A program made the position numbers and the translations under genes. The notes beneath the pieces are model-generated. The model did not search any database. It was not told the origin of the DNA and saw only the letters and a list, made by a program, of their open reading frames with translations. From Gemmatimonadota bacterium (GTDB taxonomy: Bacteria > Gemmatimonadota > Gemmatimonadetes > Gemmatimonadales > Gemmatimonadaceae): a stretch of DNA of 64,000 nucleotides. Positions 25,105 to 59,338 of the stretch are shown one piece after another; position 1 is the stretch's first letter, and each line of letters starts with the position of its first letter. The stretch covers positions 1,211 through 65,210 of the forward strand of contig PLCA01000012.1 in the NCBI GenBank assembly GCA_003134685.1, written 5' to 3'.

Positions 25105-25240
25105 CAATTCGGGGGTCTGTTTCGGGGTCTGTTTCTCCGGCGAAAGTACGACATCCACTAAGTGAGTGACCGGCTCCGACGCTCGGTTCCCCTCTAAAGT
25201 CCGGCAAATTGATGTAATTGGTTTGTGCTATGTTTTGATT
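25105..25240 (+). repeat. Repeat family A, copy 3 (runs into the tRNA-Ala tail)
   Basis: It is nearly identical to 10067-10215: CAATTCGGGGGTCTGTTTCG, GTGAGTGACCGGCTCCGACG, TCTAAAGTCCGGCAAATTGA and GTGCTATGTTTTGATTTGCAA. Here the tRNA-Ala T-arm and acceptor follow intact, unlike in copy 1. Confidence 0.82.
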
Positions 25241-25280
25241 TGCAACTAGGAGGTCGCAGGTTCGAGCCCTGTACGCTCCA
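25237..25280 (+). other. tRNA-Ala(TGC) 3' fragment
   Basis: TTTGCAACTAGGAGGTCGCA and the T-arm/acceptor are identical to 16-57. The 5' half of the tRNA is replaced by family A sequence. It is the second boundary of the 25.2-kb interval that starts with the tRNA-Ala tail at 1-57. Confidence 0.88.
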
Positions 25281-25481
25281 TGACTTACTTATTCTGGGGG
25301 CTTGTTTGGGGTCTGTTTGTCCTCGAGCTAGCCCCCTTTCTGCTGTTCCACCGGTCTGCTCACGCTAGGCGTTCTCGCCGCGACACGCTGCAAATCAGAT
25401 AACCGACACTCGATCCCCAATACGCTTGGTGCGCGCGAGAAGGAGTCGGTGCGATGCGCAACCTCCTGCTACTGGAGCAGG
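25239..25481 (+). repeat. About 240-bp direct repeat, copy 2
   Basis: It matches 16-258 with a handful of differences and ends at the same palindrome CTCCTGCTACTGGAGCAGG. After it, the sequence switches to the P module shared with 36.8 kb. Confidence 0.88.
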
Positions 25482-48936: not shown

Positions 48937-49265
48937 CCGCCTCTAAAGTCCGACGGTTTGTCGTGATTGGTCGAGTAATTCGCTGCGTCGGGAGCAGGTG
49001 TCAGTTCTGGTGTCAGTCGGATACGGACATCCGGAGACAGCAGCTAAGGTTGCACAGAACATTTTGCGATCCGTCAGAGTGAAATGCGGACATCTTGTCC
49101 TACCATAGCTTCTAGTTTCCATGCCTGACAAGCGTGAGGTCGGGGGTCAGTTTGGGGGTTAGTTTCTCCCGGCAAACCCCGATATTGATGTCGGAAAGAA
49201 TCGGCACCGACGCTCGATTCCCCTATGAAGTCCGGCAGATTGTCGTGATTGGTTAAGTAATTGCC
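48937..49265 (+). repeat. Repeat family A, copies 4 (partial) and 5
   Basis: Copy 4 is CCTCTAAAGTCCGACGG at 48941, followed by the pair GGTGTCAGTTCTGGTGTCAG. Copy 5 (49128-49265) has the tRNA-Ile-like core ACAAGCGTGAGGTCGG, the pair GGTCAGTTTGGGGGTTAGTT, CACCGACGCTCGATTCCCC and AAGTCCGGCAGATTGTCG, and runs into the tRNA-Ala tail. Confidence 0.78.
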
Positions 49266-49311
49266 CTGCTTTGCAACCAGGAGGTCGCAGGTTCGATCCC
49301 TGTACGCTCCA
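49265..49311 (+). other. tRNA-Ala(TGC) 3' fragment
   Basis: CTGCTTTGCAACCAGGAGGT through GCAGG-TTCGATC-CCTGT (T-arm) to ACGCTCCA. It differs from the copies at 1 and 25.2 kb in the anticodon stem and T-loop. To its right the DNA is coherent exopolysaccharide-locus sequence, so this may be the outer boundary of the mosaic. Confidence 0.85.
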
Positions 49312-49381: not shown

Positions 49382-50320
49382 TCAGTATATCGGAAGATCG
49401 TCGAAGCTGACGATGGCACTGGCATCGCCCTGGATTGGGGCATGATCCAAAGCGCTCTCCGCGCGGTGCACCAACTCCGCAACGTTGATTTTCGACGCCG
49501 CCAGATCCGACACTGCCGAGTAGCCTACGCGAAGACGAACCTGACCGGCAATGGTTTTGTTCTTCGATGCCCGGTCCAGCTCTCGCTGCAGGCGGGCAAC
49601 CAGTAGTCGCGCGCCGGCGGCGTCGGTATCCGGCGCCAGAATCGCGAGCCGAGACTCACCAGCGTGGCCGACGACGTCCGACTGGCGGCTCTGCTCACGG
49701 AAGACGTGGGCGACGTCGGCGAAGCCGACTGGACTTTCCTTCCACAACATACTCGATCCCACTTCGCGATCGTGGACCTGGGGCGCGAACGCGAGGCATG
49801 CAAACGATTCGTGTTTCCTGAGGGCGCGCGCGCCGAGCTTTCCGGCCAACTGGCGCAGACCGAACGACGTGTAGAGGCCGGTTGTGGAATTGACGAAGTC
49901 TTCGGCGCGGGCAATGACGAGCTCGTTGCGTGCGCGAAGGAATGTCTCGAGCTTGACGAAAACCGGCTCGAGATCGACTGGATGACTGCAGTATTCCCAG
50001 GCGCCCGCGCTGAAGGCCGCCATGCGGGCGCGGGGATCGGCGGGTGTGGGGGAAGTGATCACAATTGGTACGGAGTGATCGAAGTGGTCGCCCTCTCGAA
50101 TGGCTCGGCAGACGTCGATCGCTTTCACATCGGCGAGGGATTCGTCGAGTACCAGGAGATCGTGATTGGCCAGACGCGCCAGCTCCATGGTTTGCACGCC
50201 CGAGCGGGTGTGCGCGACGACGTACCCGTGCTGTTGAAAAACGCTCTCCAACGCCCTGCTCATCCAATCGTCGCCGCACGCAATCAAAGCAAGGGGCGGA
50301 CGTTCCTGGGACAGTTGCAT
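49382..50320 (-). CDS. Response regulator with degenerate REC and GGDEF-like domains (A)
   Basis: A 312-aa protein. The REC domain (1-125) keeps the acceptor Asp in LLVLDESLAD, but the conserved Lys-Pro is HP in EYCSHPVD. The C-terminal domain (140-300) has GGDEF-like spacing, with GHAGESRLAILAPDTDAAGA at the active loop: GESRL instead of GGDEF, so no cyclase activity is expected. It is the last gene of the wbpP-like operon and is preceded by a GEMM riboswitch whose 3' end abuts its ribosome-binding site. Confidence 0.85.
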   Translation of the reverse strand: MQLSQERPPLALIACGDDWMSRALESVFQQHGYVVAHTRSGVQTMELARLANHDLLVLDESLADVKAIDVCRAIREGDHFDHSVPIVITSPTPADPRARMAAFSAGAWEYCSHPVDLEPVFVKLETFLRARNELVIARAEDFVNSTTGLYTSFGLRQLAGKLGARALRKHESFACLAFAPQVHDREVGSSMLWKESPVGFADVAHVFREQSRQSDVVGHAGESRLAILAPDTDAAGARLLVARLQRELDRASKNKTIAGQVRLRVGYSAVSDLAASKINVAELVHRAESALDHAPIQGDASAIVSFDDLPIY

Positions 50321-50333
50321 CGAGGCTCCTCTT

Positions 50334-50425
50334 CGGTAGCTCGACTGGCATGGCGCCTGATCAGCGCTTTAGCCTCGTAGCTTTGCGTCGCCACCTTTCG
50401 GTGGGTTTGCCGGTTTTCGGAGGTG
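50334..50425 (-). promoter_or_regulatory. c-di-GMP-I (GEMM) riboswitch upstream of regulator A
   Basis: On the minus strand: CCGGCAAACCCACCGAAAGG, TGGCGACGCAAAGCTACGAG, GCTAAAGC, a variable hairpin, then GCCAGTCGAGCTACCG. This matches the GEMM aptamer in order: GGCAAACC, GAAA tetraloop, GACGCAAAGC, the second stem and the receptor/closing strand. The aptamer ends directly before AAGAGGAGCC and the ATG, so ligand binding could alter ribosome access. Confidence 0.9.
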
Positions 50426-50638
50426 CTAACCTGTCCGGGCTTGGGGCCGCGTACAGGCTGAGCGTGAGTCTTATTGGGGGAGACGACCGAGGCGAGGCCG
50501 GGTTACCAGCGCCGGGGCCCTAGATTCGGCTCTGAGGAGGCTGAAACGGTTAACTTGTTTCCCTATAATGACTTAGTCGAAGCACAGTTTGACAAAACGC
50601 AACAGAATGGAGCCCGTTCTGCTGCCCTTCGAAGTGTC

Positions 50639-51811
50639 CTACTGCATTATGGGGAGCGAGAGAACGAACGAGAATCGCGTTCCTTGGACGCTGGAGTCAA
50701 CCTGCAGCGTGCTCCCCATGGCCTCTACAAGAGTGCGCACGATCGCGAGCCCGAGACCGGCGCTCGAGAACCGAAGCTTCACGCCCTCGGGGGGGAACCC
50801 GTAGCATAGTCTCTCGAGCACGTCGTCCGGTATGCCGGGACCAGTATCTTCGACCCAGAACTCGACCCGGTCCGCCGAAAGTTCGCTACAACCCATCGCG
50901 ACCGAGCCCGCGTCCGTGTAGCGAAGAGCATTGGACGCGAGGTTGAGGAGCGCCTGCTGGATCGCGGATGCGTGCCCGACCCGCGCGTCATTTTCGGGGA
51001 ATTCGACTCCGAGCGGAATTCCTTTCTCCTCGCACATGGGCTGCACGATCGTGGCCACGGAGTGCATGGTTTCGCTGACGGAGAAGGGCATTGGCTTCCC
51101 TTGCACAACACCGTCGCCGCGCGCTGCACCGATGAGATTTGAAACAGTCGTGCTCAACCCGAATGCGGCGCCGTAAATGAGTCCGAGCTGCCGCTCCCTG
51201 ATTGCGTTTGGTGCCGACTTTTCGGCGCGGCGGAGCGCATCGACGAGGAGAAGAATCGAGCAGAGGGGAGAACGAATGTCGTGGGCGATCGCCACCACAG
51301 CGTCCGCGCAATCCGCACCAGTCAGCCGAGAGATGAACTTGCCACGGTCGGTACGCCTCCACGCGTCCTCTGCTTCATCGAGCTTGATCAACGTGCGCAC
51401 GACTTCGTTCGCGTTCAGGTCCGGCGTCACCGCCAGCTCCGAGAGAAAATTCACCTTCAACGAGGAAACGTATTCGCGCGCGATGACAGGAGGGATTGGT
51501 GCGGAGTCAAGAGCGTTGTTGCGGAGGCCCGCGATCAACCAGGTGACGACCTCGTTGAGGCGTTCCCGAACTTCGCGGCGTGTCTGCTTCGTCCCGTGCG
51601 CGATAGTCGTCGCGGTCCGGTCGGCGGCCAGCTCGAGAGCACGGACGAGAGAGCAGCCGGTGCTTATGGAGACCGGGGCCGATTGAGGAGGGGCGCCGTC
51701 GCTTGCTCGACCGCCTGCGCCAGCATTCGACGATGACGAAAAGGGCGAGTAGCCCTGAAAGTTATCTGAAGCTGATGCGGAGTTTGTTGCAGTTGGGTCC
51801 ATCTGCGCCAT
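50639..51811 (-). CDS. Soluble sensor histidine kinase
   Basis: A 390-aa kinase without TM segments. A Ser/Ala-rich, probably disordered N-terminus (1-50) and an unrecognised helical sensor region (55-160) are followed by HisKA, VVAIAHDIRSPLCSILLLVD (His near residue 176), and HATPase_c: NLASNALRYTDAGS, EDTGPGIPDDVL and SAGLGLAIVRTLVEAMGS. It lies between two REC/GGDEF-like regulators in one leftward operon, and is probably their kinase. Confidence 0.92.
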   Translation of the reverse strand: MAQMDPTATNSASASDNFQGYSPFSSSSNAGAGGRASDGAPPQSAPVSISTGCSLVRALELAADRTATTIAHGTKQTRREVRERLNEVVTWLIAGLRNNALDSAPIPPVIAREYVSSLKVNFLSELAVTPDLNANEVVRTLIKLDEAEDAWRRTDRGKFISRLTGADCADAVVAIAHDIRSPLCSILLLVDALRRAEKSAPNAIRERQLGLIYGAAFGLSTTVSNLIGAARGDGVVQGKPMPFSVSETMHSVATIVQPMCEEKGIPLGVEFPENDARVGHASAIQQALLNLASNALRYTDAGSVAMGCSELSADRVEFWVEDTGPGIPDDVLERLCYGFPPEGVKLRFSSAGLGLAIVRTLVEAMGSTLQVDSSVQGTRFSFVLSLPIMQ

Positions 51812-51991
51812 GCTTCCTCGTCCCCCGATTGACCCGCTCGCGGACGCCCATATTGGGGGTATGTACGCATAAGGTCAAGAGCGGCTTACACGTATGACTC
51901 AAGTGTTATGGTTGGAGCGCAGTTTTCCGTCTTGTGAAACGGCAGTTTGCCCTAACGAAATTGGATAGGGGAGTCCGCGGGCGGCGGGCGC

Positions 51992-52927
51992 TCAGGAGAG
52001 GTAGAGATCATCGAAACTCGCCACTGTTTCGCCGTGCGCGTATGCAGCTGCGTGCGCCACTGTACTCTCCGAGCGATGGACAAGCTCGTTTACATCCACG
52101 TTGGCGGCGGCGAGATCCGACACCGCGCAGTAGCCGGCCAGGAGGCGAAACGAGCCCGCGCGAGCGTTGTTCTTCGACACCGCGTCGAGCTCGCGCTGCA
52201 GCCGCGCGACCAGTAGCCTGGCGCCGGCGGCGTCGGTGTCGGGCGCCAGAATCGCGAGCTGGGACTCGCCAGTCTTCGCGACCACGTCCGACTTTCTTGC
52301 TTGTTCACGCACTACGTGTACGACGTCGGCAAAAAACTCGCGAGCCGAACCGTTTCCTCGCTGTCCCGATTCAGGGGCCGCTTGCTCGGGAGTGAATGTG
52401 ACACATGCGAAAGCTTCGTGGTTCCGAATCGCGCGCGCCTCGAGCTGTTCCGCCAGTTGATGCAGCCCAAATTGAGTGTAGAGACCACTCGCCGGATCCA
52501 TCAATGACGTCGTCTGGGACGCCGCCAGCTCCTGCCGCGCGCGGAGGAAGGTCACGAGCCTGAGGAAAAGCCCGTCGACGTCGAGAGGAAGATGACAGTA
52601 CTCCCAGGCTCCGGCGGCGTACGCCTTGATTCGCCCGGGCAGGGTCGAATGCGAGGAGGAGATGATCACGATTGGCGTTGCGTGATCAAACAGCGGGTCT
52701 TCCCGCAGCGCCAGGCAGACGTCGACACCGGTTAGCTCGTGCAGCTGCTCGTCGAGCATCAGGACGTCGTAGCCGCCGCGTCGGGCGAGCTTGAGCGCTT
52801 GCTTGCCCGACCCGGTTCGCGTGACGTCGTATCCCTTCTCCGCGAAAACGCTCTCGAGGGAGCGACACAGCCACTCGTCACTACAGCCGATCAGAGCGAC
52901 CAGTTTGCGCGGATTCGTCTCGGTCAT
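51992..52927 (-). CDS. Response regulator with degenerate REC and GGDEF-like domains (B)
   Basis: A 311-aa paralogue of the regulator at 49382. REC: VLMLDEQLHELTGVDV with acceptor Asp, but LP in EYCHLPLD where Lys-Pro is expected. GGDEF-like domain: KTGESQLAILAPDTDAAGAR, again without GGDEF. The two proteins share long identical runs in the C-terminal half, which points to duplication inside the operon. Its ATG overlaps the epimerase stop (ATGA), tying signalling to sugar-nucleotide synthesis. Confidence 0.87.
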   Translation of the reverse strand: MTETNPRKLVALIGCSDEWLCRSLESVFAEKGYDVTRTGSGKQALKLARRGGYDVLMLDEQLHELTGVDVCLALREDPLFDHATPIVIISSSHSTLPGRIKAYAAGAWEYCHLPLDVDGLFLRLVTFLRARQELAASQTTSLMDPASGLYTQFGLHQLAEQLEARAIRNHEAFACVTFTPEQAAPESGQRGNGSAREFFADVVHVVREQARKSDVVAKTGESQLAILAPDTDAAGARLLVARLQRELDAVSKNNARAGSFRLLAGYCAVSDLAAANVDVNELVHRSESTVAHAAAYAHGETVASFDDLYLS

Positions 52928-54057
52928 GACGCCACCAGCGTAAGAGGGGTTCCGGAATGGTGCGGCGGGTTGACGACTGAAGCCGGTTGGTGACGTGGCA
53001 TTGCGGCAACTGGGTGACCAGCGGTCGCTTGCGCTTTCTCTACATACCAGCCCAACGCCTCTTCCAGTCCTTGCTCAACGCTGTGCGTGGGCGAGAAAGA
53101 GAGCATCCGGCGCGCCTTCTCGATCGATGCGCAGGAGAACCGAATATCACCAGGGCGGAAGGCGTCGTATTGGGGTAGCTCAAGACCAAATCGTGGCTCC
53201 TGTAGCGCCAACCGGTTGCGCATCACCTGAAAGAGCTGATTCAGGGTGACCGATTCGGCACAGGCAACGTTGTATGCCTGCCCCGTTGCGTTGACATCAT
53301 TCACTGTCGCTGCAAGCAGGTTGGCCTGAATGACGTTCGCCACGTGGCAGAAGTCACGGGTGGTTTCTCCGTCACCGAAGATGCGGCACCGCTCGCCTCT
53401 CAGCAGGCTCGCGATCCAGCGCGGAATCACCGCTGCGTAAGCTCCCGCGGGATCCTGACGTCGCCCGAACACATTGAAGTAGCGCAATCCGATGGACTGC
53501 AGGCCGTAACTCATCTGAAAGGCGACGGCGTACGTTTCGTTGGTTGTCTTGCTGGCGGCGTACGGCGATAGCGGGCGCCCCAGCCTTTCCTCGACTTGCG
53601 GATAGTCCGAGGTGTCTCCGTACACTGCGCTCGAAGAGGCGAAGACGAAGCGCTTGACACCCGCGTCCTTTGCCGCGACCAGCATGTTGACGAAGCCATC
53701 GACGTTGACGGCGTTCGTGCGGAGCGGATCATCCATCGACCAGGGAACGGAGCCGAGCGCTGCGTGGTGGAGCACGTAGTCCGCGCCTTTGCAGGCTGCT
53801 CGGCACGTCTCGAGATCCCGGATGTCGCCTTCCACCATCCGGAACTGCGCTTTGCCGTTCAGTGGGCTGGCAAGGACTTCGTCCAAATTGGAGCGATGGC
53901 CGGTCGAGAAGTTGTCGACACCGACAACTGTTTGCCCCAGCGCCAGCAGTTCCTGAAGGAGGTTGGAGCCGATGAACCCGGCGACTCCTGTGACGACCCA
54001 GACCTTGGGAGCTGAACGCAGTTGTGCGCGAAGATGGGGATACGGTGCGGAGATCAC
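52924..54057 (-). CDS. UDP-N-acetylglucosamine 4-epimerase, WbpP/TviC-like
   Basis: A 377-aa extended SDR. KVWVVTGVAGFIGSNLLQEL (NAD site), VGVDNFSTGHRSNLDEV, VLHHAALGSVPWSMDDP, FASSSAVYGD, SPYAASKTTNE (YxxxK), RYFNVFGRRQDPAGAYAAVI and FGDGETTRDFCHV are hallmark runs of WbpP-type epimerases, which interconvert UDP-GlcNAc and UDP-GalNAc. I chose GTG 54057, giving ISAPYPHLRAQL at the start, close to the family length. It provides precursors for the polysaccharide locus and is the first gene of the leftward operon. Confidence 0.93.
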   Translation of the reverse strand: MISAPYPHLRAQLRSAPKVWVVTGVAGFIGSNLLQELLALGQTVVGVDNFSTGHRSNLDEVLASPLNGKAQFRMVEGDIRDLETCRAACKGADYVLHHAALGSVPWSMDDPLRTNAVNVDGFVNMLVAAKDAGVKRFVFASSSAVYGDTSDYPQVEERLGRPLSPYAASKTTNETYAVAFQMSYGLQSIGLRYFNVFGRRQDPAGAYAAVIPRWIASLLRGERCRIFGDGETTRDFCHVANVIQANLLAATVNDVNATGQAYNVACAESVTLNQLFQVMRNRLALQEPRFGLELPQYDAFRPGDIRFSCASIEKARRMLSFSPTHSVEQGLEEALGWYVEKAQATAGHPVAAMPRHQPASVVNPPHHSGTPLTLVAS

Positions 54058-54321
54058 GTGCTCGCAGTGGAAGTGTGCCCGCCGGCCAGATTCAGGGCAG
54101 TCGTGCGCGGGAGCACGTCCACTCGATCTTGCGCGCCGCATGTAGCGGCCATTCTCAGCGACGCGACAAAGCATCTTCCATTCCCACCGAGCCCAACGTT
54201 GTCGGGCGTATAAGTCGTGTTTCTGCAGGCGCTTATGAGTTCGATGGAAGTCCACTGACCGCCGTGATTCGCTCCTTTGTCGCGGTTTTACCCCATTCCT
54301 GTGGTGACCGGGCCACAACCA

Positions 54322-54405
54322 ATTCACACGTTTCGCATAATCGAGTCACGCGTTTCACATAATCGATTCACACGTTTCGCATAATCGATTCACGCATTCA
54401 ATAGA
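54322..54405. repeat. 22-bp tandem repeats in the divergent control region
   Basis: Units at 54322, 54344 and 54366, consensus ATTCACACGTTTCGCATAAT plus CG, with a partial fourth. The 22-bp period (two helical turns) places the units on the same face of DNA, as for cooperative activator binding. They lie between the leftward epimerase operon and the rightward deacetylase gene. The rest of the 560-bp gap (54058-54615) shows no gene. Confidence 0.8.
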
Positions 54406-54615
54406 AGGCGTTCCTGACCGGGACGGTGCAAACAATTAGAATGGCGTCCATTGCGGCGTCAACGGATAGTCGTCTGTAATCGTACTGTAATTGAAAGCAT
54501 CTATATTTTGCGGGCTTAGTTGTTTTGGGTTGAGGCGCCGTCAGCTGGATTGCGAGCGCCTTTGTCCATCCCGCACCGTCCCCCACACAATTCTTGTCAC
54601 GCTAGTGTGTCGATA

Positions 54616-55431
54616 ATGCCCAACGGGCTGTTGAGTTCAGCGGCGCGCCGCGTCAAGGCAGCCGCAGGGTGGATAATTTTTCGGACCGGTCTCTACCGAC
54701 GGATGCGCCGGGACGAAGCGGTAATCGTTCTCTTCCACAGAGTGAACGACGCCCTCCCGAACGACCCGCTGACCTACACCACTCAAAAATTCGAGGAATT
54801 TGTCCGTTTCTTCGGGCGATACTTCGATGTCGTCCCATTGAGTGTGTTGCTGCGACGTTTGGAGACGGGCGCCGAGCTGGCGGCCTGCCTGGCCATCACG
54901 TTCGACGATGGATACCGAGGCAACGCTACCATCGCCGCACCCATTCTCGAGCGCCACGGTCAGACCGCATGTTTTTTTGTAACGACTCAATTCGTCGGCA
55001 CGGATTACGTTCCCTGGTGGGACGCCGAAAAAAAAATCCAGACTAAGTGGATGACATGGGACCAGGCGCGCGCACTTCGTGCGGCAGGCCACGATATCGG
55101 TTCTCATACTCAGACACACCCCGATCTTGGAGTCATTCCCCCAGACGAGGCTCGCCGCGAAATTGGCGGCGGTAGCACCCGTCTCGACGCCGAGCTTGGT
55201 GATCACTCCGGACTTTTCGCCTATCCTTTTGGCGGGCGGAAAAACATGTCCGCAGCGAACCAGGTGGTTGTCGGAGAGCTTGGATTGAGATGCTGTCTCT
55301 CGGCGTACGGAGGCACCGTTCGCACCGGCGACGATCCGCTTCAATTGAAGCGCACGACAATCTCGGACTGGTATCTCTCTCCATACCAGTTCGGCTTCGA
55401 ATTGATGACTGGCCTTCTCAAGCCCAAGTGA
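54616..55431 (+). CDS. Polysaccharide deacetylase (NodB homology, CE4)
   Basis: A 271-aa CE4 enzyme. VIVLFHRVNDAL, ITFDDGYRGNATIAAPIL (motif 1, catalytic base and metal Asp, near residue 100), GHDIGSHTQTHPDLG (motif 2, metal His pair near 163) and GLFAYPFGGRKN (motif 3). There is no cleavable signal peptide, though the N-terminus is amphipathic. It would remove N- or O-acetyl groups from a glycan, consistent with exopolysaccharide modification. Confidence 0.92.
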   Translation: MPNGLLSSAARRVKAAAGWIIFRTGLYRRMRRDEAVIVLFHRVNDALPNDPLTYTTQKFEEFVRFFGRYFDVVPLSVLLRRLETGAELAACLAITFDDGYRGNATIAAPILERHGQTACFFVTTQFVGTDYVPWWDAEKKIQTKWMTWDQARALRAAGHDIGSHTQTHPDLGVIPPDEARREIGGGSTRLDAELGDHSGLFAYPFGGRKNMSAANQVVVGELGLRCCLSAYGGTVRTGDDPLQLKRTTISDWYLSPYQFGFELMTGLLKPK

Positions 55432-55459
55432 TGGCCACTCCGGCCCGCGGGAGGTCGCA

Positions 55460-56650
55460 ATGAAAGCCGCGGCAAAACGCGCCAGAGTTCTCGCTTTGGG
55501 ATCCGGAATAACACTGCTCGGCGTGCTGCGGACACTCTCGGAATCGGGAGCCGATGTCATCGCACTACCGGACATCGACCGCGTCACGCGGCGTTCGCGC
55601 TGGTACCGTGCGGGCCCGCCTGCTTTATCAGGACTGAAAGCAGAAATGTTGGCGCAGCGTCTCGAAAGCCTTCCCGCCCAGACCATTCTCATGGCGAGCA
55701 GCGATCTTTGGGTGAGGACGGTCGCTGCCCTCCCGGCAGCGGTTCGCGCTCGTTATCCGGCCAGCGTCGCTCCTCTCCCCGCACTGGACCTTCTCGTTGA
55801 CAAAGCGCGCTTCGGCGCCGCGCTCGACCGGCTGCAGCTGCCGCACCCTGCGACGCGACTGATGAAGTCGGTTCAGGATCTCGCTGGCGTCTCCGACGCC
55901 GTCCTTCAAAGCTCGTTCCTGAAGCCGGCGCACTCGCAACAGTTTTTCGCCCGCTTCAACGTGAAGGCCTTTCGCATTGTGGACAGGCCCCAGGCAAATG
56001 ATCGGCTGTCCGAGTGCATCCACGGCGGATTCGAGATGATGCTGCAGGAGTACATCCCCGGACCGCCGACCAATCACTACTTCATCGATGGATTTGTCGA
56101 CCGCGACGGCGTAGTCAGAGCACTCTTTGCGCGGCGCCGCTTGCGAATGAGTCCTCCGGACTTCGGGAACAGCACATTGATGATCAGCGTACCAGTGAGC
56201 GAGACGGGTAACGCCGCTCGAACGTTGGAAACCCTTTTTCGAGACATTGACTACCGGGGAATCTTCAGCGCCGAGTTTAAGCGGGATTCCCGGGACGGGG
56301 TGTTCAACATCATCGAGGTGAACGCGAGACCCTGGTGGTACGTCGAGTTCGCCGCCCGCTGTGGAGTCAACGTCTGCGAATTGGCGATACGTGATGCTGC
56401 GGGAGAACCGGTTGAAACGATCTCGGACTACGCAGTCGGACGTCGTTGCGTGTTTCCATACTACGATCTCGAGGCTGTCCGTGTCGAGCGCGCGGCTGGT
56501 CGACTCGGGCTGATAGGGTGGGCGCGATCATGGATCGGGCCATATCAACCGGTCTTTCGATGGTCCGACCCGCTACCCGCCGTGGGCGAGGTTGTGGCGT
56601 TGATCGGGGGACGCATTCGCAGAGTTGGCACGCGGCGCCGACCCGCCTGA
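55460..56650 (+). CDS. ATP-grasp enzyme of unknown specificity
   Basis: A 396-aa ATP-grasp protein. VLALGSGITLLGVLRTLSES is the N-terminal Rossmann-like part, LDLLVDKARFGAALDRLQLP the hinge, SSFLKPAHSQQFF carries the ATP Lys, MMLQEYIPGPPTNHYFIDGF the adenine strand, and FNIIEVNARPWWY the metal-binding Glu/Asn (near 285). It ligates an acid to an amine or thiol; in glycan loci such enzymes add amino acids to sugars. It is codirectional, 28 bp after the deacetylase. Confidence 0.88.
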   Translation: MKAAAKRARVLALGSGITLLGVLRTLSESGADVIALPDIDRVTRRSRWYRAGPPALSGLKAEMLAQRLESLPAQTILMASSDLWVRTVAALPAAVRARYPASVAPLPALDLLVDKARFGAALDRLQLPHPATRLMKSVQDLAGVSDAVLQSSFLKPAHSQQFFARFNVKAFRIVDRPQANDRLSECIHGGFEMMLQEYIPGPPTNHYFIDGFVDRDGVVRALFARRRLRMSPPDFGNSTLMISVPVSETGNAARTLETLFRDIDYRGIFSAEFKRDSRDGVFNIIEVNARPWWYVEFAARCGVNVCELAIRDAAGEPVETISDYAVGRRCVFPYYDLEAVRVERAAGRLGLIGWARSWIGPYQPVFRWSDPLPAVGEVVALIGGRIRRVGTRRRPA

Positions 56651-56785
56651 TCGGTCGTTTGAATGCGTCGGCGCAGCGCCCCAGCGCGCGTTACTATGGA
56701 TGAGATTTGAGCGTCTGATAGTGTAGCAGAAGAGGCATGTGCACAAAGCACGTTGGGACATGCCTCTATAACCGTTTATCGTAAT

Positions 56786-56913
56786 GAGTAACTACGCTGC
56801 TCAGAGCAAAGCCGTCGAGAGGCGGTGACGCAGAGCCACGGGGCTAGAGCGGGTCTTCCGCGAAGCCAGCCGAGCCGCCAGTGAATCCGACAATCGGTCG
56901 GTGCCGCGGCGGC
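56786..56913 (+). promoter_or_regulatory. c-di-GMP-I (GEMM) riboswitch with Rho-independent terminator
   Basis: GAGCAAAGCCGTCGAGAGGC, GGTGACGCAGAGCCACGGGG, CTAGAGCGGG, a variable stem and AAGCCAGCCGAGCCGCC match the GEMM order, with GAGA as the tetraloop. Its last bases GCCGCC (56875-56880) can pair instead with GGCGGC at 56908, which is followed by TTTTTT, giving a mutually exclusive terminator. That arrangement predicts read-through when the ligand is bound (ON switch; inference). Confidence 0.87.
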
Positions 56914-56971
56914 TTTTTTGTTACCAGGCTGCCTCGCACATCGCTCGCCTCAGAATAAAGGAGCTCCGCTC

Positions 56972-59338
56972 ATGCCGTCCATATTCTCGCTCGCCAAGCG
57001 CATCGCAATCCGTACCGCCTGGGTTGCCCTGCTGCCTACACTCATCGTGTGCTCGGGAAACGGGTCGACCGGTACCACCGTGGCGCCACCGGGCACGGTC
57101 TCGGATCTCCTTGTGTCCGGTATTGCAGATAACTCGATCACCCTCTCGTACACACAGGTTGACGATGGTACGGGCCAGCCAGCAGACTACGACGTGCGCT
57201 ATGCCGTCGCACCCATGTCATGGGGTTCTGCGAGCTCGACGGCGAGCGGAACATGCGCGACACCCGTTTCGGGTACAGGAGTTAGTGGGACGCTAACATG
57301 CACCGTGTCAGGTCTGTCGCCTTCGACGACCTACAACTTCCAGTTGATCGCATTTCGTGGAACGCTCCATGGCGATGCAGTTTTCGGAGGCGTTTCGAAC
57401 GTCGCGTCAGCAGCTACGCAAACGCCAGCGGCAGTAGTGACGACAGTGACGGTAGCACCGGCGTCTCCCTCGATCGGCATCGGAGGCACTGCTACGCTTC
57501 AGGCAACCGTGAAAGACGCGCAAGGCAACGTCATGAGCGGACAAACTGTCAGCTGGTCCAGCGACAATACCGCCGCGGCGATTGTGAATGCAAATGGCGT
57601 GGTCACCGGGGTTGCAGCGGGTTTGGCGACGATTACCGCGACCTGCGCAGGAAAGTTGGGCACCGCCAGCGTCACGGTAACTTCATCGCCTCCACCTCCA
57701 CCCGTCGTGACGACCGTCACGGTGGCTCCTTCGACAGCATCGATAGTGGTTGGTGCAACGACGTCCCTGGCGGCAACAGTTAGGGATGCTCAGGGCAATG
57801 TGATGACCGGACAGACCGTGACGTGGTCCAGCGACAACGCGGCCGCGGCGACTGTGAATGCAAACGGCGTGGTCACTGGCGTCGCAGCAGGTTCCGCGAC
57901 GATCACCGCGACCTGCGCAGGAAAGTCAGGCACCGCGGGCGTCACGGTAACTGCAACGCCTCCTGTCGTGACGACCGTTACAGTGGCTCCTTCGACAGCA
58001 TCGGTAGTCGCTGGCGCGACGACGCCGCTGACGGCGACGGTCAGGGATGCTCAGGGAAATGTCATGACCGGGCAGACCATTGTTTGGTCGACCAACAACG
58101 CCGCTGCAGCGACGGTGAATTCGAATGGCGTGGTTACCGGTGTCGCCGTAGGCTCGGCTACGATCACGGCGACCTGTGCCGGCAAGACGGGCTCGTCGGC
58201 CGTTACGGTGACGGCTTCGCCGCCACCGGTGGTGACCACCGTAACGGTGGCGCCTTCGACAGCATCTATAGTTGTTGGTGCGACGGCCCCTCTGATGGCA
58301 ACGGTCAGGGATGCTCTCGGAAATGTCATGACCGCACAGACCATCGTTTGGTCGACCAACAACGCCGCAGCGGCAACGGTGAATTCGAGTGGTGTAGTTA
58401 CCGGGGTCGCAGCAGGCTCGGCTACAATCACGGCGACCTGCGCCGGCAAGGCGGGCTCGTCGGCCGTGACGGTCACCGCTGTTTCGTCGGGAGGGACCTT
58501 GCTGTTCGAGGAGGATTTCGAGGATGCCAATCTCGCGTCGCGCGGCTGGTACGACAACACAGGCGCGGTTCTGTCAACCACGGAACACATTGCCGGCAGT
58601 GTCAGCTCGGCCGAATACAGGTTCCTTGCAGGGGCAACGACCCCGACAAACGGCAATGCCCAGCGCCACAAGTTCACACCGTCGAACTCGTTCTACGTCA
58701 GCTATAACGTGAAGTACAGCGCAAACTGGGTGGGCTCGAATCAGCTCTACCATCCGCACGAATTCTACGCCATGAGCACGTTGGACGGTGATTGGGACGG
58801 CCCGTCGAACGGATTCATGGTTGTGTACATCGAGCAGAACTATCAGAACGGAGGCAAACCGCGGCTTACGGTGCAGGACAACAAATCCGTAAACAGCACG
58901 TATGGTGCGCTACCGCACAACCTCGTCGGGGTAACCGAGGACCGCTCGACCAGCGGCTGCAACGGCATGGCGGAGAGCAACATGTTCTCCGAGTGCTTCG
59001 ACGCGGGTGGATACTGGTACAACAGCAAGCAGCTTCTGGGGCCAGTTGTATTCCAGCCTAATCCGGGAGCGGGCTACAAGAACAACTGGAATTTCGTCGA
59101 AGCCTATTTCCAGTTGAACACGATTGTGAACGGGATTGGCCAGGCGGACGGAGTCATGCAATACTGGTTCAACGGCGCACTCATAATTGACAGGCATGAC
59201 ATTTTATTCCGGACCGGCGCGCATCCGACTATGCAATTCAGCCAGTTCCTGATCGCACCGTACATTGGAGACGGCTCGCCGGTCGATCAGTCGATGTTCA
59301 TCGACAACCTGAGGCTGGCGACTTCTCGAATACCGTAA
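56972..59338 (+). CDS. Secreted FN3/BIG2-repeat protein with C-terminal jelly-roll-like domain
   Basis: A 788-aa surface or secreted protein. A signal peptide (to LIVCSG, possible lipobox) is followed by FN3 (about 30-145), four BIG2 Ig-like repeats (about 155-510, each VTTVTVAPSTASIVVGAT ... GVVTGVAAGSATITATCAGK), then a 280-aa C-terminal domain (LLFEEDFEDANLASRGWYDN, NSFYVSYNVKYSANWVG) resembling concanavalin-like or polysaccharide-lyase folds. Likely a matrix adhesin or glycan-binding enzyme. It is controlled by the GEMM riboswitch 60 bp upstream. Confidence 0.88.
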   Translation: MPSIFSLAKRIAIRTAWVALLPTLIVCSGNGSTGTTVAPPGTVSDLLVSGIADNSITLSYTQVDDGTGQPADYDVRYAVAPMSWGSASSTASGTCATPVSGTGVSGTLTCTVSGLSPSTTYNFQLIAFRGTLHGDAVFGGVSNVASAATQTPAAVVTTVTVAPASPSIGIGGTATLQATVKDAQGNVMSGQTVSWSSDNTAAAIVNANGVVTGVAAGLATITATCAGKLGTASVTVTSSPPPPPVVTTVTVAPSTASIVVGATTSLAATVRDAQGNVMTGQTVTWSSDNAAAATVNANGVVTGVAAGSATITATCAGKSGTAGVTVTATPPVVTTVTVAPSTASVVAGATTPLTATVRDAQGNVMTGQTIVWSTNNAAAATVNSNGVVTGVAVGSATITATCAGKTGSSAVTVTASPPPVVTTVTVAPSTASIVVGATAPLMATVRDALGNVMTAQTIVWSTNNAAAATVNSSGVVTGVAAGSATITATCAGKAGSSAVTVTAVSSGGTLLFEEDFEDANLASRGWYDNTGAVLSTTEHIAGSVSSAEYRFLAGATTPTNGNAQRHKFTPSNSFYVSYNVKYSANWVGSNQLYHPHEFYAMSTLDGDWDGPSNGFMVVYIEQNYQNGGKPRLTVQDNKSVNSTYGALPHNLVGVTEDRSTSGCNGMAESNMFSECFDAGGYWYNSKQLLGPVVFQPNPGAGYKNNWNFVEAYFQLNTIVNGIGQADGVMQYWFNGALIIDRHDILFRTGAHPTMQFSQFLIAPYIGDGSPVDQSMFIDNLRLATSRIP
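57436..58490 (+). repeat. Four tandem DNA repeats of about 255-265 bp encoding BIG2 domains
   Basis: Units begin near 57436, 57706, 57967 and 58231. Runs such as GTGGCTCCTTCGACAGCATC and GATGCTCAGGGCAATGTGAT are shared between units 2, 3 and 4, so the copies arose recently and could expand or contract by recombination. Confidence 0.8.

Follow-up and report, generated by a model that had tools for sequence, protein, structure and literature searches.

The DNA analyzed here, a 64,000-nucleotide (nt) stretch of contig PLCA01000012.1 from a member of the Gemmatimonadaceae (hereafter the window), holds two riboswitches of the GEMM-I fold within one polysaccharide locus, which we named RS-A and RS-B. 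The whole window was scanned with cmscan against Rfam 15, and exactly two matches to RF01051, the cyclic di-GMP (c-di-GMP)-I model, were found, each of full length (1–87 of 87) and well above the cut-off of 35 bits. A preliminary description, made from the sequence alone, had placed GEMM aptamers at these two sites, and its coordinates proved right within approximately 10 bases. For RS-B, a score over the cut-off denotes membership of the GEMM-I fold only. In line with the same description, the Pfam content of the genes showed a regulator behind one aptamer and a Big_2 surface protein behind the other. The parts of both switches, with paired region 1 abbreviated as P1, and the genes that they precede are as follows.

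50332–50421, minus strand: RS-A, c-di-GMP-I aptamer with canonical pocket (G20, A47, A48, C92); RF01051, 79.0 bits, E 7e-14.
50418–50423, minus strand: 5′ strand of RS-A P1, CCUCCG, complementary to the Shine-Dalgarno sequence; from sequence reading and orthologues.
50326–50331, minus strand: Shine-Dalgarno sequence GAGGAG of regulator A, its GAGG part within P1; from sequence reading and orthologues.
49382–50320, minus strand: regulator A, REC plus degenerate GGDEF (AGESR replaces GGDEF); PF00072 6e-11, PF00990 3e-6.
56795–56882, plus strand: RS-B, GEMM-I-fold aptamer of the A20/G48 sub-class; RF01051, 58.7 bits, E 7e-9.
56795–56799, plus strand: 5′ strand of RS-B P1, CGCUG, pairing with 56879–56883; P1 covariation across phyla.
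56805, plus strand: A at the Vc2-G20 equivalent (model position 11) of RS-B; RF01051 alignment.
56833, plus strand: G at the Vc2-A48 equivalent of RS-B; RF01051 alignment.
56872–56919, plus strand: intrinsic terminator sharing bases with RS-B; hairpin of -25.9 kcal/mol.
56972–59338, plus strand: secreted or lipoprotein-like protein with fn3 and four Big_2 repeats; PF02368 3e-40 (four stretches), PF00041 1e-7.

That both matches are chance structures or functionless decayed copies is very improbable: mismatched P3 pairs of RS-B in the Rfam alignment would fit decay, but the E-values of both matches, compensatory changes in orthologues and conserved platforms argue against it. The genome of the window (3.63 Mb, 98% complete) has four RF01051 matches, and the two outside the window, on other contigs, are both of the G20/A48 type. 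One (G000:C11:30573-30661) precedes a Big_2 protein whose end resembles Polysacc_lyase, just under the Pfam cut-off, and the other (G000:C12:195310-195402) precedes a peptidase-M15-like protein.

The two aptamers of the window differ in their pockets. Model position 11 is the equivalent of Vc2 G20 (PMC9262584; PMC11218506), and A48 counts, along with G20, A47 and C92, among the nucleotides reported as key to recognising the ligand (PMC3764141). RS-A has G at the position-20 equivalent, and its A47, A48 and C92 are all canonical. The ligand-contact bases are thus complete in RS-A, while RS-B retains A47 (56832) and C92 (56878) but carries A for G20, the position that the preliminary description had proposed to inspect, and G for A48. 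This runs against the proposal, in the same description, that one messenger acts on both. RS-B lacks the G20 and A48 of the c-di-GMP type and has the A20, together with A47 and C92, of the GEMM-Ib type, which responds to cyclic GMP-AMP (cGAMP, also written c-AMP-GMP). Variants that bind c-AMP-GMP have been reported to carry A20, and an aptamer with such a key pocket change gained c-AMP-GMP affinity, perhaps with a slight loss of c-di-GMP affinity (PMC9481103); further, a G20A GEMM-I aptamer has been crystallised with cGAMP (PMC6274999). The ligand of RS-B is most likely 3′,3′-cGAMP, or cGAMP with residual c-di-GMP binding.

To place these pockets among those of relatives, 61 related genomes were searched; 42 of them had RF01051 matches, and all 117 matches were examined. 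Among the 110 that exceeded the cut-off, G20/A48 was the prevailing type (76), followed by A20/G48 (21), A20/A48 (10) and others (3). G48 occurred together with A20 in 21 of 22 cases and with C at the U90 equivalent in 22 of 22. The notion that U90C merely makes up for A48G was rejected: C also stood beside A48 in 26 of 87 readable matches, so that the coupling of G48 and C is one-sided. The A20/A48 matches (L080, L081, L082, L086, L093 and five more) form a second A20 group, mostly reading GAGCACACC...GCCGCAAAAC; in several of its members the chosen frame, of 104–236 amino acids, starts 1–9 nt past the aptamer.

The expression platforms of the two switches differ as well, one being translational and the other transcriptional, as had been proposed. 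RS-A adjoins the ribosome-binding site, ending 11 nt before the ATG of regulator A, with the Shine-Dalgarno sequence inside P1. Since CCUC is paired in P1 with GAGG from this sequence, ligand should hide it, which makes RS-A a predicted OFF switch: binding of c-di-GMP would stabilise the P1 that holds the Shine-Dalgarno sequence and would shut off translation of the REC/degenerate-GGDEF regulator. The pair CCUCCG...CCGAAGAGG was conserved in RS-A orthologues, and a regular expression for CCTC-like 5′ and GAGG-like 3′ flanks was matched by 16 of the 76 G20/A48 aptamers, a type that is often found a few to approximately 30 nt ahead of the start codon. An alternative pairing, CGAGGCU/AGCCUCG, was discarded, as its forced fold (-36.4 kcal/mol) was not favoured over the free fold (-37.7 kcal/mol); ViennaRNA energies, here and below, ignore ligand and tertiary contacts and were not taken as proof of switching. 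RS-A is probably an ordinary c-di-GMP sensor that turns the regulator off.

In RS-B, P1 (CGCUG/CAGUG) is uninterrupted, lacking the A95 bulge, and the junction J1/2 reads CUCAGA. The 5′ arm of the terminator, GAGCCGCC (56872–56879), includes C92, C93 and part of P1, and is followed by the 3′ arm GGCGGC (56908–56913) and a run of six T (56914–56919), which bears out the earlier observation that this aptamer shares bases with a terminator. A consensus terminator scan did not list the hairpin because its loop is longer than the scan permits. The free fold of the leader, with the terminator, had -58.3 kcal/mol, against -51.2 kcal/mol with the aptamer pairs enforced. Since C92, C93 and some of the P1 bases are drawn into the terminator arm, a ligand-stabilised P1 should prevent termination: ligand would hold CGCUG/CAGUG together, keep GCCGCC from the terminator and allow transcription to reach the gene of the Big_2 protein. 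Terminators with a 3′ arm that pairs to the aptamer end were found in 12 of the 21 A20/G48 matches compared to none of the 76 of the G20/A48 type. RS-B thus probably turns the surface protein on, and the anatomy of the two switches suggests opposite signs, a point on which the preliminary description was silent. On balance we favour, with moderate confidence, a reading in which the locus has two riboswitches of the GEMM-I fold that differ in pocket and, by prediction, are opposite in sign, RS-A being turned OFF by c-di-GMP and RS-B probably ON by cGAMP.

The features of RS-B recur in a sub-class, whose members share a P1 with CUG/CAG, a J1/2 that is CUCAGA or close to this, the bases A20 and G48, and a 3′ GCCGCCAG. 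We aligned 43 distinct members from several phyla, gathered partly by a pattern that fixes core bases, so that core conservation arises by construction while stem pairing does not. In this alignment, 93.3% of the cells were paired and 16 of 27 pairs had changed on both sides, values of which neither was reached in any of 500 shuffles. For P1 the respective figures were 99.5% of the cells and 3 of 5 pairs, with CGCUG/CAGCG, CUUUG/CAAAG and UCCUG/CAGGA as covariants. The A49-U pair of the model was absent in all 43 members, which have A and C instead. The pattern matched 45 of the 288 genomes of the order, compared to 2 of 288 for a reversed control; one match, in G200, was judged by eye not to be an aptamer and was discarded, leaving 44. 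In named genomes, a looser pattern was too permissive, returning at least 116 stretches, of which a regular expression left eight; six of these were aptamers by eye and were confirmed by cmscan, namely, among the matches listed, L121, L133, L147, L197, L203 and L217, whereas L186 and L193 were rejected as non-aptamers. The carriers, again among the matches listed, included metagenome-assembled genomes (MAGs) of the Gemmatimonadetes (L197) and Acidobacteria, a Chloroflexi-labelled MAG, a Geobacter and two Nitrospirae.

The proteins behind A20/G48 aptamers are mostly secreted or lipoproteins, mostly immunoglobulin-like (Ig-like), and many start with M-x-F-x-[FH]KL-x-x-RLA. Big_2 was present in six of eight selected proteins, the other two having no Pfam match, and the target in the window is likewise a Big_2 protein. 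A lipobox was seen in approximately 34 of 44 targets, a rough count, since the automatic choice of frame was wrong in places (an internal start for the window gene; L301 doubtful). Because the canonical G20 switch on contig C11 also precedes a Big_2 protein, both messengers may converge on such surface proteins.

In some relatives, single leaders hold both pocket types. Among 44 sub-class sites that had 300 nt or more of downstream sequence, a canonical G20 aptamer came next in five (L013, L019, L039, L042 and L308) and another of the same kind in five. In the five heterotypic tandems, the A20/G48 aptamer stands directly upstream of the canonical one, ahead of the same gene. For four of these five leaders, the sequence starting at the second aptamer was folded. 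In the minimum free energy (MFE) folds of three (G054:C1, G054:C176 and G052:C17), the Shine-Dalgarno region is paired with a post-aptamer CCUC that the 5′ GAGG could instead take up to form P1; the MFE fold of G054:C246 lacks this pairing. This pairing would make the second switch ON at translation and, with the ON terminator upstream, predicts a gate requiring cGAMP AND c-di-GMP. In its accessible portion, Table 2 of a review on tandem riboswitches lists no c-AMP-GMP/c-di-GMP-I pair (PMC9481103).

If RS-B-type aptamers read cGAMP, a synthase might be expected in the same genomes. The Geobacter GGDEF enzyme that makes cGAMP has Ser348 at the site occupied by Asp in canonical enzymes, and replacement of the cross-dimer Arg by Tyr or other residues favours cGAMP (PMC6456294). 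We counted orthologues of a MASE1-like GGDEF protein at E < 1e-90 over the 288 genomes and found them in 32; Ser stood at the position of GacA Ser348 in 31 of 31 readable sequences, the remaining one being truncated, and the cross-dimer residue was Tyr in 22, His in 7, Asn in 1, Gln in 1 and Arg in none. G037, G052 and G054, with several sub-class members each, have one Ser-type GGDEF apiece, the protein whose orthologues were counted. Sub-class and cyclase occurred together in 23 genomes, the sub-class alone in 21, the cyclase alone in 9 and neither in 235 (p=5e-15). The corresponding counts were 23/14/5/60 within family f2 (p=6e-9) and 8/8/3/60 by genus (p=6e-5), where the relation is again not exclusive. 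Shared ancestry inflates the genome and f2 p-values, an effect that counting by genus lessens and does not remove. The link between sub-class and cyclase is thus an association, not a rule. Hidden enzymes of this Hypr type were also sought among domain-level GGDEF matches of carriers without the orthologue and, in a sample of 20, were rejected: 18, which also served as controls, have Asp, and the two with Ser were pieces of the orthologue. Asn occupies the Ser/Asp specificity position in the GGDEF proteins L247, L250, L282 and L352, the first three of which share, by eye, a cysteine-rich ferredoxin-like N-terminal part.

Several observations weigh against a cGAMP-responsive RS-B and the predicted switching. 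The genome of the window has 10 PF00990 matches, none of the Ser type (five Asp, five degenerate or motif-less), and no SMODS match; G014, the other pattern-positive genome of the genus, shows no Ser type in nine GGDEF matches; no Ser-type cyclase accompanies the sub-class in G057 and G268 (G057 has one Asn type); and, in all, the cyclase orthologue was not found in 21 of the 44 sub-class carriers. Published A20 aptamers can retain c-di-GMP binding (PMC9481103). With regard to the platforms, 9 of the 21 A20/G48 matches fail the strict terminator rule, and the free and aptamer-constrained folds of RS-A are only 1.5 kcal/mol apart, its ligand-free Shine-Dalgarno sequence not being cleanly free.

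Given that no cGAMP synthase is recognisable in this genome, c-di-GMP could serve both RS-A and RS-B, the A20/G48 pocket still preferring it, and a single messenger would then lower the regulator and raise the Big_2 protein. We consider this unlikely, though it deserves serious weight: canonical diguanylate cyclases are present in the genome (5 of 10 matches with GHxxGD-type Asp) but neither a Ser-type GGDEF nor SMODS, the sub-class occurs in several near-complete genomes that lack the Hypr orthologue, and G20 has been described as a selectivity factor, not a hard filter (PMC9262584). Against it stand A20 as the hallmark of c-AMP-GMP binding (PMC9481103; PMC6274999), the tracking of the Hypr cyclase by the sub-class across the order, and the five A20/G48-then-G20 tandems, which would be odd with one ligand, even though same-ligand tandem riboswitches exist (PMC9481103). 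Two messengers are, in our view, more likely than one shared messenger.

The missing synthase also bears on whether RS-B is an orphan: a cGAMP-type aptamer, ancestral or acquired horizontally, in a lineage from which cGAMP synthesis has been lost or was always absent, where it would be a relic or would attenuate constitutively. The pattern occurs in only 2 of the 19 genomes of the genus (G000, that of the window, and G014), to which a diverged copy in G011 (L073), missed by the pattern, must be added, and no synthase was found in G000. Yet aptamer and terminator are conserved, the aptamer region in G011 being 83.7% identical to that of the window compared to approximately 65–67% for the coding part, and a P2 pair having changed on both sides, from C-G to U-A, which suggests selection and renders an orphan improbable. 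In this organism, RS-B may accordingly read c-di-GMP, or cGAMP from an unrecognised source, or be an orphan.

Returning to cGAMP as the probable ligand of the sub-class, we tentatively propose, with somewhat less confidence than for the two switches themselves, a cGAMP pathway apart from c-di-GMP throughout this order of soil bacteria, in which a MASE1-like Hypr cyclase would act through A20/G48 antitermination on Ig-like lipoproteins. The tandem leaders would combine cGAMP AND c-di-GMP, at transcription and translation, and in the window both inputs would be split over two genes with opposite signs. The two messengers are one base apart, and their makers and readers are nearly identical proteins and RNAs, which raises the question of how cells keep them apart. 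As both pocket types stand side by side, in one locus here and in a single leader in relatives, their separation is directly testable. The Ser-type cyclase and the A20/G48 aptamer offer sequence markers for cGAMP signalling beyond the established groups, and Ig-like surface lipoproteins are suggested as an output. A literature search, with most subscription papers outside its reach, returned no paper joining Hypr GGDEF with a Gemmatimonad, none joining Gemmatimonadetes, c-di-GMP and riboswitch, and none joining three of cAMP-GMP, riboswitch, Gemmatimonad and c-di-GMP-I.

The remaining genes between the two switches are as follows.

50639–51811, minus strand: histidine kinase; PF02518 3e-20, PF00512 4e-4, the latter under its cut-off.
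51992–52927, minus strand: regulator B, second REC plus degenerate GGDEF; PF00072 2e-13, PF00990 2e-7.
52924–54327, minus strand: NAD-dependent sugar epimerase/dehydratase, true start uncertain, domain from residue 111; PF01370 3e-64.
54616–55431, plus strand: polysaccharide deacetylase; PF01522 9e-22.
55460–56650, plus strand: ATP-grasp-like protein, under the Pfam cut-off; PF15632 2e-5, 24.9 bits against 29.1.

Regulators A and B flank the kinase and look paralogous, with approximately 65% nucleotide identity in the L010/L105 cross-matches; since neither keeps the GGDEF motif, they may bind a nucleotide rather than make one. The C-terminal part of the Big_2 protein has no Pfam match, and its lipobox-like LIVC is non-canonical. 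Genes for a family 2 glycosyltransferase, an FkbM-type methyltransferase and a class-III aminotransferase follow on the plus strand. The whole locus is colinear on one contig of the congener G014, at approximately 90% nucleotide identity, and the segment from regulator A through kinase and regulator B to epimerase, with RS-A, is present in G009 and G011, the regulator A part also in G016. Rightward of the window (L394, G000:C15:65000-72945) lie glycan-type genes and more Ig-like lipoprotein frames, without an RF01051 match in the genome search.

A perfect 10-nt inverted repeat, AGAGGCATGT/ACATGCCTCT (56731–56740 and 56758–56767, 17-nt spacer), stands 27 nt upstream of RS-B and may, from its sequence, be a terminator without a T-run or a protein site. 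Three copies of a transfer RNA (tRNA) 3′ half were observed at 1–57, 25240–25281 and 49271–49311, with exact AGGAGGTCGCAGGTTCGA at 25, 25248 and 49279 (0.01 expected). Spaced 25.2 and 24.0 kb apart, they look like two tandem island-like segments beside a tRNA gene, which end just before the riboswitch locus; a 41-nt direct repeat, 83% identical (48940–48980 and 49222–49262), lies just before the third copy. The locus as a mobile island that imported RS-B was considered and dropped, as no tRNA-3′-end copy was found right of the locus on the same contig.

Among known systems, a cluster of seven riboswitches within 7 kb has been described in D. acetoxidans, there paired with adenosylcobalamin (AdoCbl) switches, unlike the window (PMC9481103). 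RS-A resembles Vc2-type c-di-GMP-I riboswitches (RF01051) in fold, G20, A47, A48, C92 and its position beside the start codon. RS-B is like them in fold, A47 and C92, and differs by A20, G48, C at the U90 equivalent, the uninterrupted P1 and a J1/2 of CUCAGA. The GGDEF proteins of the relatives resemble the Hypr enzyme GacA in two places, with Ser at the equivalent of Ser348 and, in most, Tyr as the cross-dimer residue; their N-terminal part reads as a multi-pass MASE1-like sensor, and this cyclase is absent from the genome of the window, which in lacking a Hypr cyclase differs from the Geobacter GEMM-Ib systems. L366, L369 and L370, which by likeness we take to be of the classic GEMM-Ib type, read AAUACUCAACC...GGGGCGGAAAGCC with A48, whereas RS-B reads CAGAGCAAAGCC...GACGCAGAGCC with G48, and one Geobacter MAG holds both L366 and an A20/G48 aptamer, L364. 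RS-B is like the Geobacter GEMM-Ib/3′,3′-cGAMP riboswitches in combining A20 with A47 and C92, and those switches exert ON control of surface functions, with termination in the absence of ligand (PMC6456294), as predicted here for RS-B.

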